NCBI RefSeq assembly: GCF_013389595.1
Contig: NZ_CP058306.1
Span: 992,001-1,056,000, forward strand
Reading direction: 5' to 3'
DNA length: 64,000 nt
DNA from: Flavobacterium sp. I3-2
Lineage (GTDB): Bacteria; Bacteroidota; Bacteroidia; Flavobacteriales; Flavobacteriaceae
Every line of letters starts with the position of its first letter. Position 1 is the first letter of the stretch. The position numbers and the translations under genes were made by a program. Below the pieces are notes generated by a model. The model made no database searches. It worked only from the letters and a program-made list of their open reading frames with translations, and was not told the DNA's origin. Positions 47,896 to 50,364 of the stretch are shown piece after piece.

Positions 47896-49131
47896 ATGTT
47901 AGATAAAGAAATAATTAGTTACGAAAAAGCAGTTTTGGTTGGTATCATTACTCAAAACCAATCTGAAGATAAACTAAACGAATATTTAGACGAATTACAA
48001 TTCTTAACATTCACTGCAGGTGGTGAAGTTGTCAAACGTTTTAAGCAAAAAATGGACAAACCAAATCCAAAAACTTTTGTCGGAACCGGAAAACTTGAAG
48101 AAATTGAATTATTTGTTACAGAAAATAAAATAGACACCGTTATTTTTGACGATGAACTTACTCCTGCTCAACAAAAAAATCTATCAAAAATATTGGAAGC
48201 AAAGGTTTTAGACCGAACCAATTTAATTTTGGACATTTTTGCTCAACGCGCAGAAACTTCATATGCAAGAACTCAAGTTGAATTAGCTCAATTTCAATAT
48301 TTACTTCCTAGATTAACCGGTATGTGGACTCACCTTGAACGTCAACGAGGTGGAATTGGTATGCGTGGACCTGGAGAAACAGAAATTGAAACCGACCGTC
48401 GTATTGTTCGTGATCGCATCGCTTTACTTAAAGAAAAATTAAGAACCATTGACAAGCAAATGGCTATTCAACGTGGAAATCGAGGTGCTTTAGTTCGTGT
48501 TGCTTTGGTTGGTTATACCAATGTTGGAAAATCGACTTTGATGAATGCTGTCGGAAAAAGTGAAGTTTTTGTTGAAGATAAACTATTCGCAACATTAGAC
48601 ACTACGGTTAGAAAAGTGGTCATTAAAAACCTTCCTTTTTTGTTAACCGACACTGTAGGATTTATTAGAAAGCTTCCAACACAATTGGTTGAATCGTTTA
48701 AAAGTACTCTGGATGAAGTTCGAGAAGCCGATTTATTACTTCACGTGGTTGATATATCACATCCTGAATTTGAAGACCATATCGAATCGGTAAATCAAAT
48801 TTTAAAAGAAATCAAAAGTGATGATAAGCCTACGATTATGATTTTTAATAAAATCGACAAATACAAAGCCGAACATTTTGATGAAGAAGATTTAATGATT
48901 GAACGTTCAACAAAACATTATTCTATTGAAGAATGGAAAAATACATGGATGAATAAAGTTGGTGAAAATAATGCCATTTTTATTTCAGCAACAGAGAAAG
49001 AAAACTTCGAAGAATTTAGACATAAAGTTTACGATGCGGTCAGAGAAATTCATTTAACACGTTTCCCTTACAATAACTTTTTGTATCCAGAATATCAAGA
49101 TGCTTTTGACAAAGAAGATGAAGTTGAATAA
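47896..49131 (+). CDS. hflX: Ribosome-associated GTPase HflX
   Basis: HflX binds the large ribosomal subunit and splits stalled ribosomes under stress. The 411-residue protein has the N-terminal HflX domain with NPKTFVGTGKLEEI near 53-66, the linker QRGGIGMRGPGETEIETDRR near 152-171, and the GTPase motifs GYTNVGKST (about 205-213), DTVGFI (about 251) and NKID (about 317). The length is typical. There is no terminator between it and the asparagine leader, so read-through into asnA would still pass the attenuator. Confidence 0.95.
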   Translation: MLDKEIISYEKAVLVGIITQNQSEDKLNEYLDELQFLTFTAGGEVVKRFKQKMDKPNPKTFVGTGKLEEIELFVTENKIDTVIFDDELTPAQQKNLSKILEAKVLDRTNLILDIFAQRAETSYARTQVELAQFQYLLPRLTGMWTHLERQRGGIGMRGPGETEIETDRRIVRDRIALLKEKLRTIDKQMAIQRGNRGALVRVALVGYTNVGKSTLMNAVGKSEVFVEDKLFATLDTTVRKVVIKNLPFLLTDTVGFIRKLPTQLVESFKSTLDEVREADLLLHVVDISHPEFEDHIESVNQILKEIKSDDKPTIMIFNKIDKYKAEHFDEEDLMIERSTKHYSIEEWKNTWMNKVGENNAIFISATEKENFEEFRHKVYDAVREIHLTRFPYNNFLYPEYQDAFDKEDEVE

Positions 49132-49156
49132 ATTTAACAAAAATTAAAGTTTACTC

Positions 49157-49173
49157 TAAGTATTAAATACTTA
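49157..49173. promoter_or_regulatory. Palindrome upstream of the asparagine leader
   Basis: A perfect 8-bp inverted repeat around a single base (TAAGTATT-A-AATACTTA). It touches a -7-like TAATTTTA (49172-49179), about 30 bases before the leader-peptide ATG. It could be an operator over the asnA promoter; in such AT-rich DNA chance is possible. Confidence 0.3.
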
Positions 49174-49205
49174 ATTTTATCAGATTAAAATTCAAAAAAA
49201 ATCAA

Positions 49206-49283
49206 ATGATTTTAACAATTAACAATAATTTCAATTTCAATAATTCGAATAATCCTATTCGGAAGGGAAGTTATTGCTTATAA
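49206..49283 (+). CDS. Asparagine leader peptide (25 codons) of asnA
   Basis: A short frame from ATG 49206 encodes 25 residues, eight of them asparagine, beginning MILTINNNFNFNNSNNPIRK and ending before the TAA at 49281-49283. It sits 79 bp upstream of asnA, the asparagine synthetase, with a strong intrinsic terminator between (49315-49343). An amino-acid-rich leader in front of the gene making that amino acid, followed by a terminator, is the classic layout of ribosome-mediated transcription attenuation. The last two Asn codons (49248-49253) lie in the first arm of the putative pause hairpin. The role is inferred, but codon content, position and RNA pairings agree. Confidence 0.85.
   Translation: MILTINNNFNFNNSNNPIRKGSYCL
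49244..49272 (+). promoter_or_regulatory. Attenuator segments 1 and 2 in the asnA leader RNA
   Basis: Segment 1 (49244-49251, TTCGAATA) can pair with segment 2 (49256-49263, TATTCGGA) around an ATCC loop, forming 8 bp with one G-U pair. Bases 49264-49272 (AGGGAAGTT), continuing segment 2, can instead pair with 49318-49326 in the first arm of the terminator (9 bp including three G-U pairs). Stalling on the Asn codons would open segment 1 and favour the second pairing, preventing termination. Confidence 0.6.
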
Positions 49284-49314
49284 TTAAAATTATATTTTAA
49301 ACATATTATCAAGT

Positions 49315-49343
49315 AAAGGCTTCTCTGTTGAGAAGCCTTTTTT
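49315..49343 (+). terminator. Attenuator terminator before asnA
   Basis: AAAGGCTTCTC (49315-49325) and GAGAAGCCTTT (49330-49340) form a perfect 11-bp stem with a TGTT loop, followed by more T. It ends only 19 bases before the asnA ATG, so it acts as a barrier to asnA transcription rather than only as the end of hflX. Confidence 0.9.
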
Positions 49344-49362
49344 ATTATAAAAAATTTCAATC

Positions 49363-50364
49363 ATGTGTAGAATTCAATTAGAAAACGAACAAAAAATCGC
49401 ATTCGTAAAAAAAACATTTTCGCATTTACTTTGCGAAAAATTAAACTTGATTCCCATTTCTTCGCCATTAATGGTATTAGATGGTTTGGGAATCAATGAC
49501 GATTTAAATGGTATTGAGCGTCCAGTTCGATTTCCGATTAAATCAATGAACGACAAACAAGCCGTAATTGTGCATTCATTAGCAAAATGGAAACGCATTC
49601 GGCTAAAAGAATACGAAATAAAACAAGAAGAAGGAATTTTAACTAACATGAGTGCTTTACGTCCTGATGAAGATTATTCTCCAATTCATTCCATTTTTGT
49701 TGACCAATGGGATTGGGAAATCCGCATGAATAAAACAAACAGAACAATAAGTTATTTAAAAGAAAATGTTCTGAAAATTTATGAAAGTATTTTAGAAACT
49801 GAAAAAATCATTTCTGAAAAATACACTGAGATTAAACCTATTTTACCTCAGCAAATAACATTTATTCATACCGAAGAATTATTACAATTATTTCCAAATC
49901 AAACCGCAAAAGAACGCGAGCATTTAATCACAGAAAAACATGGAGCAGTTTTCTTAATTGGAATTGGCGCGAAATTAAGTTCAGGTCAATTACATGATGG
50001 TCGAGCAGCTGATTATGATGATTGGAGCACAGAAACAGAATTAGGCAAAGGTTTAAATGGAGATTTATTAGTTTGGAATCCTGTATTAAAACAAAGTTTT
50101 GAACTTTCGTCTATGGGAATTCGCGTTGATAAAATGGCATTACATCGTCAATTAATCGAAAGAGAACAAGAAGATAAACTTTCACTTAGCTATCATCAAA
50201 TGATTATGAATGACGAAATTCCGTTGAGCGTTGGTGGCGGAATTGGGCAATCTCGTTTGTGTATGTTTCTTTTAAGGAAACAGCACATCGGTGAAGTTCA
50301 AGTAAGTTTATGGGATGATAAAATCGTTAAAGAACAACTTGATAAGAAAATCATCATGTTGTAA
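49363..50364 (+). CDS. asnA: Aspartate--ammonia ligase (asparagine synthetase A)
   Basis: It makes asparagine from aspartate, ammonia and ATP. The 333-residue protein matches AsnA, a class II aminoacyl-tRNA-synthetase-like enzyme: LIPISSPLMVLDGLGINDDL near 28-47, RPVRFPIK, ALRPDEDYSPIHSIFVDQWD near 98-117, and the C-terminal motif PLSVGGGIGQSRLCMFLL near 287-304. It is controlled, by inference, by the asparagine leader and terminator just upstream. It appears to be the only structural gene of this unit. Confidence 0.95.
   Translation: MCRIQLENEQKIAFVKKTFSHLLCEKLNLIPISSPLMVLDGLGINDDLNGIERPVRFPIKSMNDKQAVIVHSLAKWKRIRLKEYEIKQEEGILTNMSALRPDEDYSPIHSIFVDQWDWEIRMNKTNRTISYLKENVLKIYESILETEKIISEKYTEIKPILPQQITFIHTEELLQLFPNQTAKEREHLITEKHGAVFLIGIGAKLSSGQLHDGRAADYDDWSTETELGKGLNGDLLVWNPVLKQSFELSSMGIRVDKMALHRQLIEREQEDKLSLSYHQMIMNDEIPLSVGGGIGQSRLCMFLLRKQHIGEVQVSLWDDKIVKEQLDKKIIML

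Follow-up and report, generated by a model that had tools for sequence, protein, structure and literature searches.

The window, a 64,000-nucleotide stretch of Flavobacterium sp. I3-2 DNA, carries asnA, the gene for aspartate--ammonia ligase, downstream of hflX, and the 231 nt that separate the two genes contain an Asn-rich leader ORF and an intrinsic terminator (Table 1). The stop codon of the leader ORF is at 49281-49283, 79 nt before the asnA ATG (49363); the terminator consists of a perfect 11-bp stem (49315-49340) with a T run to 49343, 19 nt 5' of the same ATG. An earlier sequence-only reading of this DNA had described both elements, as a 25-codon ORF with eight Asn codons and a perfect 11-bp terminator at these distances from asnA, and both are found as it gave them.

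Table 1. Features of the hflX-asnA region, in coordinates of the window
Feature	Position	Strand	Basis
hflX, upstream gene, GTPase HflX	47896-49131	+	TIGR03156
Promoter -7-like element TAATTTTA, beginning 34 nt 5' of the leader ATG	49172-49179	+	Pattern TAnnTTT[A/G]
Leader peptide MILTINNNFNFNNSNNPIRKGSYCL, 25 aa, 8 Asn codons	49206-49283	+	ORF; conserved in relatives
Segment 1, spanning Asn codons 6-8; 5' arm of outer 1:2 helix	49220-49232	+	Fold, partner-swap test
Stretch with Asn codons 6, 7, 8, 10, 12, 13, 15 and 16	49221-49253	+	Sequence
P1, nested hairpin 49244-49251:49256-49263, abutting the antiterminator strand	49244-49263	+	Fold, alignment
Segment 2 (A), antiterminator strand, partner 49318-49326	49264-49272	+	Duplex, partner-swap test
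3' arm of outer 1:2 helix, overlapping antiterminator strand A	49267-49280	+	Fold
Segment 3 (B), terminator 5' arm	49315-49325	+	Terminator call, fold
Segment 4 (C, 49330-49340) and T run, terminator 3' arm	49330-49343	+	Fold; compensatory changes
asnA, aspartate--ammonia ligase	49363-50364	+	TIGR00669, 401.7 bits vs cut-off 292.8

The Asn score of the leader ORF is the highest among the 1,715 short ORFs in the six frames of the window, with a value of 3.06 compared to 1.4 for the top-scoring ORF ahead of the 19 other terminators of at least 8 bp in the window. No ORF as rich in Asn arose in 5,000 dinucleotide shuffles of 49132-49362, and no 11-bp terminator in the 1,000 of these shuffles that were examined for terminators. 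The fold of 49180-49365 is far more stable than that of shuffled sequence (z -5.29). The leader contains no Trp codon. In enterobacterial trpL and hisL attenuators the leader peptide is rich in the end-product amino acid, and the arrangement here is of the same kind: a leader ORF rich in codons for the end product (8/25 Asn) stands before an Asn synthetase gene, and the intrinsic terminator (49315-49343) sits between the two. The antiterminator 49264-49272:49318-49326 overlaps a terminator arm and is exclusive with the terminator, while the outer 1:2 helix, which has control codons in its 5' arm, is exclusive with the antiterminator.

All three pairings named in the sequence-only reading are present, namely 49244-49251:49256-49263, 49264-49272:49318-49326 (eight of the nine pairs were computed and the ninth was seen by inspection) and the terminator; the partner of the antiterminator strand lies inside and just past the terminator 5' arm. 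The first of these, P1, had been proposed as the 1:2 hairpin that competes with the antiterminator, a role that it does not fill: it ends at 49263, without overlap to 49264-49272, and its opening would not free the antiterminator strand. The competing helix is the outer one, 49220-49232:49267-49280, which is conserved in relatives. Long-type units mostly fold alike, as a long hairpin with the Asn codons in its 5' arm, the antiterminator strand in its 3' arm and P1 inside. The outer helix has an energy of -9.6 kcal/mol or lower in 24/27 units and is weak in L012, L015 and L046.

Conservation of these helices was assessed with a partner-swap test, in which strands of uniform segments were exchanged among loci (100,000 permutations; 27 units, or 20 that are non-redundant). 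Strand A paired with its own strand B at -10.23 kcal/mol as compared to -7.87 for swapped strands in the 27 units (z -6.24, 0/100,000), and at -10.44 compared to -8.10 kcal/mol in the non-redundant set (z -4.96, 0/100,000). For the outer helix, own and swapped values were -13.08 and -8.90 kcal/mol in the 27 units (z -9.09, 0/100,000), and -12.84 and -8.98 kcal/mol in the 20 (z -7.13, 0/100,000). In an 18-row covariation alignment that was built without structure and compared to 500 shuffles, 95.1% of the cells of P1 and the terminator taken jointly are paired, and the 34 cells with two-sided changes, against 11.9 in shuffles, were reached in 0/500. Compensatory changes are seen in five terminator pairs and one P1 pair; this number of pairs with two-sided change, six, is unexceptional on its own, being matched by 72/500 shuffles. 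The P1 cells are 88% paired, with column pairs that break in up to 6/18 rows, and P1 by itself is unexceptional in the window (z -1.49). RNAalifold on a sequence-based alignment gave the terminator only, because P1 and the outer helix are misregistered in that alignment.

A possible promoter was also looked for. Of 22 units examined, 19 have the pattern TAnnTTT[A/G] beginning 25-38 nt 5' of the leader start codon, although so short a pattern may also occur by chance in A+T-rich DNA; it is absent at that distance in the remaining three (L005, L015 and L215). In the available text of a study of Flavobacterium psychrophilum, TAnnTTTG is reported as the sigma-A -7 consensus (PMC9723704).

AsnA is uncommon in the genomes of the genus, family, order and phylum draws; it was found in 10/199 and 30/397 genomes of the genus and family draws (E 1e-3) and in 5/246 and 21/395 genomes of the order and phylum draws (E 1e-40), the window's genome being included in each. 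An Asn-rich ORF and a terminator precede asnA in all nine of the other genus-draw genomes with AsnA (L002-L010), with 4 to 9 Asn codons per leader, the fewest in L008 and L009 (4 and 5). Both elements are also found in 9 of 29 other family loci (L012-L015, L017, L019, L020, L023 and L025), two of the 29 being without upstream sequence. Leaders are present in four of 20 new phylum-draw loci (L211, which is weak, L214, L215 and L223, the last in spite of an upstream region of 54% G+C) and in two of three new order-draw loci (L230 and L231, the latter a near-copy of L051). Eight of 80 named contigs add further cases, every one from Bacteroidota: a Flavobacterium MAG (L041), Rhinopithecimicrobium (L042, weak), Bacteroidales (L043, L047 and L052), Flavobacteriales (L046 and L051) and Cesiribacter (L072). 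L008 and L214 were slightly below the automatic threshold and were added by hand; a Lachnospiraceae locus (L097) with a weak ORF above it was excluded from the count, and L117, with a short upstream region, was excluded from the leader scan. Thus the comparison that the sequence-only reading had called for shows Asn codons that are conserved and helices that are kept while their sequences vary. The proposal of that reading, that an Asn leader attenuates asnA in the trp/his manner, is supported by relatives that keep Asn codons and pairings through sequence change.

The asnA-hflX adjacency is seen in only 10 of the 32 leader-bearing loci (the window, L041 and eight genus-draw loci); within the flanking DNA examined, HflX is not beside asnA in the other 22. 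Therefore, it is asnA and not hflX that the leader accompanies. An AsnA tree of 84 rows (fork support 93/98; midpoint root for drawing only) places all 32 leader-bearing rows in one half of 49 rows, eight of which are not Bacteroidota, and 0/35 rows of the other half are labelled with a leader. The tree omits L011 (the second piece of the L002 gene), L034 and L039 (no upstream sequence), L231 (the near-copy) and L040 (a partial protein). Within the leader-bearing half the leader is absent from 9/41 Bacteroidota rows, among which L050 is covered for only some 150 nt upstream. L045, a Bacteroidales sister of L052, retains a terminator before asnA with no Asn leader ORF seen, and this terminator is perhaps a decayed attenuator. 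A separate AsnA clade in the family of the window's genome (L016, L018, L021, L022 and L024) has no leader; similar promoter-like stretches stand before its asnA genes, for example TTTTGATATTCATTCTATTTATTGCATTTTTG in L018.

The effect of ribosome position was modelled at equilibrium, with a footprint extending from 12 nt 5' to 14 nt 3' of the first P-site base, the readout being the fraction of the terminator 5' arm that is paired upstream before the 3' arm exists. Twenty-four of the 27 units were used for this and for the codon geometry, with L046, L214 and L072 omitted; the start codons of L012, L051 and L052 were picked by hand, and the L008 antiterminator was hand-placed in the geometry count. 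For the window unit the model gives 0.89 whichever of the eight Asn codons occupies the A site, then 0.77 at Pro17, 0.48 at Ile18, 0.17 at Arg19 and 0.23 once the stop codon is reached. Codon 16, the final Asn codon, is thus the last codon at which a stalled ribosome is predicted to leave the antiterminator free. The sequence-only reading had placed the stall at codons 15-16; these are indeed control codons in the model, but not these alone, as all eight Asn codons can act.

Averaged over the 24 units, the fraction is 0.77 when the ribosome is at the first four Asn codons, 0.33 when it is at the stop codon and 0.47 without a ribosome, and the Asn value exceeds the stop value by more than 0.15 in 19. 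No clear difference between Asn and stop is predicted for L003, L004, L006, L007 and L052, four of which have the stop codon 26-29 nt past A. The stalled ribosome lies above no ribosome by 0.15 in only 14/24 units. In the window unit the value without a ribosome is equal to that with a stalled one (0.89) and therefore the equilibrium model predicts no termination without translation there; such termination is predicted in units such as L006, L009 and L047. In the geometry count, 179/187 Asn codons lie where stalling would leave the antiterminator free, compared to 383/625 of all codons, and the value obtained for this placement, 6.5e-37, is no true probability as it counts related rows as independent.

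These results suggest how the switch would work. Transcription would start around 20 nt before the leader ORF. With ample Asn-tRNA, the ribosome would pass the Asn codons and reach the stop at 49281-49283, where it would cover the antiterminator strand 49264-49272; 49315-49325 would then pair with 49330-49340 and transcription would end near 49343. With scarce Asn-tRNA, the ribosome would stall at one of codons 6-16 and open the outer helix 49220-49232:49267-49280; the freed 49264-49272 would pair with 49318-49326 beside P1, no terminator would form and asnA would be transcribed. The start site, the ribosome stalling and the asparagine response are those that we infer from the layout of the leader. 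On the sequence evidence, the asnA leader is very likely to be an Asn-specific ribosome-mediated transcription attenuator, a switch that would very probably turn on asnA only when asparagine runs out.

Alternatively, the terminator could be controlled by a ligand- or protein-binding leader (a riboswitch, T-box or antiterminator protein), with the Asn-rich frame incidental. The P1 region is highly similar inside the genus (TTTGAAT...TTCGAAG), which would suit a binding site, but outside the genus P1 retains its pairing and not its sequence; no riboswitch or T-box family of Rfam matches the window leader up to E 10, the Asn codons recur in leaders that are otherwise unlike in sequence, and nearly all of them lie in the region in which a stall would have an effect, so that this alternative appears very unlikely. 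The Asn-rich ORF could instead encode a functional small protein, with the terminator belonging to its own transcript. The ORF does have its own promoter-like element and terminator, but the peptide is poorly conserved outside the Asn codons, varies in length and has an end that differs by lineage, and the covarying antiterminator would be left unexplained; this explanation is extremely unlikely. That a chance Asn-rich frame arose from A-rich composition beside an ordinary hflX terminator, in a region of 20% G+C where AAT is a likely codon, has a negligible probability in view of the shuffles and the ORF ranking described above, and is refuted by the conservation of the leader in relatives, including the loci with no hflX neighbour and the G+C-richer L223.

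Ribosome-mediated attenuation by asparagine was also considered beyond asnA. A wider Asn regulon was searched for in the window's genome with the model R1, which gave 32 places at E 10, of which only the asnA leader is clear; the next match (E 0.0099, L151) and 22 more that were inspected resemble gene ends followed by terminators. Thirty loci of asnB-family genes were fetched, and none of the 28 whose gene start was placed has an Asn-rich leader before the gene (L203 and L206, where the start was misplaced, were left out).

The leader was compared to known systems. With Rfam 15, no family reaches its gathering score at the window's asnA leader, nor in L001 and seven other asnA loci. The best match below threshold is Phe_leader, which spans 49282-49345 with 31.2 bits against a cut-off of 55 (E 0.004 for 801 bases), and a weaker one lies on the opposite strand of the same terminator. 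Nearest to it among known RNAs is Bacteroid-trp (RF01692), a Trp leader of the same phylum, listed in the part of a 2010 paper that was available (PMC2864571). It resembles the asnA leader in having a short ORF with its regulatory codons in a long hairpin, but the codons are Trp and not Asn; RF01692 does not match the asnA leader up to E 10, nor at gathering score in L001, while the Trp leader of L136 is matched by it with 82.9 bits (cut-off 49).

A model built from the asnA leaders cross-matches Trp leaders in other genomes of the genus. Among 20 non-asnA matches inspected in these genomes, Trp leaders of similar architecture, such as MKTILNNTWWWNNLRQTS, were seen in L132-L134, L136-L140, L142-L146 and L148, most of them before a gene that we take to be trpE-like. 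In L141, L150, L135, L147 and L149 there are Met- or Cys-rich leader-like ORFs with terminators (MNTVYTMMMTMMMWRNPQGLLFA; MKFIICHMCRMMWNFPQRTHIA; MNSIKRYTCHFMWKISAEDSIA), which presumably stand before an O-acetylhomoserine sulfhydrylase-like gene or before a 58-aa ORF that has an OsmC-like ORF behind it; these are possible sulfur amino-acid attenuators. A SAM-II riboswitch aptamer (RF01726, 64.5 bits) lies at L150:1249-1308 (-), on the strand opposite to the nearby Met/Cys leader.

As with trpL and hisL of enterobacteria, the asnA leader joins a peptide rich in the end product to alternative 1:2, 2:3 and 3:4 pairings; it differs from them in amino acid and phylum, in having P1 abut the antiterminator and, in some relatives, in having two units. 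Asn synthetase is placed under control of asparagine status elsewhere too, by a T-box in Firmicutes asnA leaders and by AsnC for E. coli asnA, that is, by a tRNA-binding RNA or a transcription factor and not by a leader peptide. The sequence-only reading had called Asn leader peptides in Flavobacteriaceae little described, which fits for Asn, as no description of one was found in the literature searched, where few subscription journals were covered; it does not fit leader-peptide attenuation in Bacteroidota as such, for which RF01692 and the 'strong clues' before amino-acid operons of F. psychrophilum (PMC9723704, available portions) are on record. In the main text of the latter study, so far as available, asparagine is unmentioned. 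Other papers, each cited here from partial text, describe leader-like short ORFs in long 5' UTRs of Bacteroides thetaiotaomicron (PMC7366714), count Bacteroidetes leader genes by distance (PMC4833913), or, in a 2010 terminator survey, limit leader peptides to Proteobacteria, Actinobacteria and, as a new addition, Firmicutes (PMC2965389). The window leader is well supported as an attenuator of the trp type whose amino acid is a new one; a Trp leader is already catalogued in its phylum.

In eleven relatives (L012, L013, L014, L017, L020, L025, L043, L046, L051, L072 and L230) the first leader and terminator are followed by a second Asn leader ORF and a second terminator before asnA, while the window has one unit; L025 and L072 were upgraded from one unit to two by eye. 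The second leaders include MPILNLNNNNNNYKSPPG (L014), MKHNNNNKSPPQ (L012), MQKINLNNNNP (L043) and MIVNSTNNQNLNSPPTR (L072). The second ATG lies 3 to 25 nt past the first T run in 10/11 of these loci, which is too near for a usual promoter, and thus transcription of the second unit would depend entirely on read-through of the first. In 10/11 loci, no more than 38/2,000 shuffles match the second leader in Asn content. The second unit of L046 is doubtful, being no better than chance (266/2,000 shuffles) and having a gap of 64 nt.

Two designs of unit can be distinguished, a long one with a nested P1 and a compact one that, in several lineages, has SPP after the Asn run. Partner swaps support the compact-unit antiterminators more weakly (452/100,000 for 14 compact or single units and 751/100,000 for 11), and the best antiterminator duplex is poor in the compact second units of L012 and L043. 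In L017, L020 and L025 the second ORF extends through its own terminator, and its Asn codons are directly followed by a PPPGG run; stalling at the prolines or a change of frame may play a part in these second units.

To our knowledge, no amino-acid attenuator has been reported in which two leader-peptide units respond to one amino acid, and no description of a tandem attenuator for a single signal was found in the literature searched, in which few subscription journals were covered. The nearest parallel is mgtCBR of Salmonella, which also has two leader ORFs in series, one of them amino-acid-rich, but its units sense ATP and proline and its stem-loops are unlike intrinsic terminators (PMC3641672, from partial text), whereas in the two-unit relatives each unit is rich in Asn and has an intrinsic terminator. 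Tandem attenuators of Mg2+ transporters receive a passing mention in the available part of a Mycobacterium abscessus paper (PMC4974804).

In the window's genome, asnS is present (a match of 603.3 bits) and asnB (TIGR01536), which has a match in 48/61 genus-draw genomes, was not found at E 1e-30; AsnA is therefore probably its only Asn synthetase. Charging of Asn-tRNA in this genome would be expected to mirror free asparagine and, with the probable dependence on asnA alone, the leader would give a clean read-out of that charging. With this attenuator, asparagine joins the amino acids sensed by leader-peptide attenuation; the Rfam searches made here matched only the Trp leader of such a kind in Bacteroidota.

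It seems likely that Asn attenuation of asnA is an old Bacteroidota device, often built of two Asn-sensing units in series that act as an AND gate, of which the lineage of the window has the long unit alone. If this is the case, both gates must open for asnA to be transcribed, giving a tighter and steeper response than that of a single trp-type attenuator. More surprising than the single unit of the window is the series arrangement, which would be a novel form of leader-peptide attenuation; further, it makes a question of design testable, namely what is gained from a second gate for the same amino acid.
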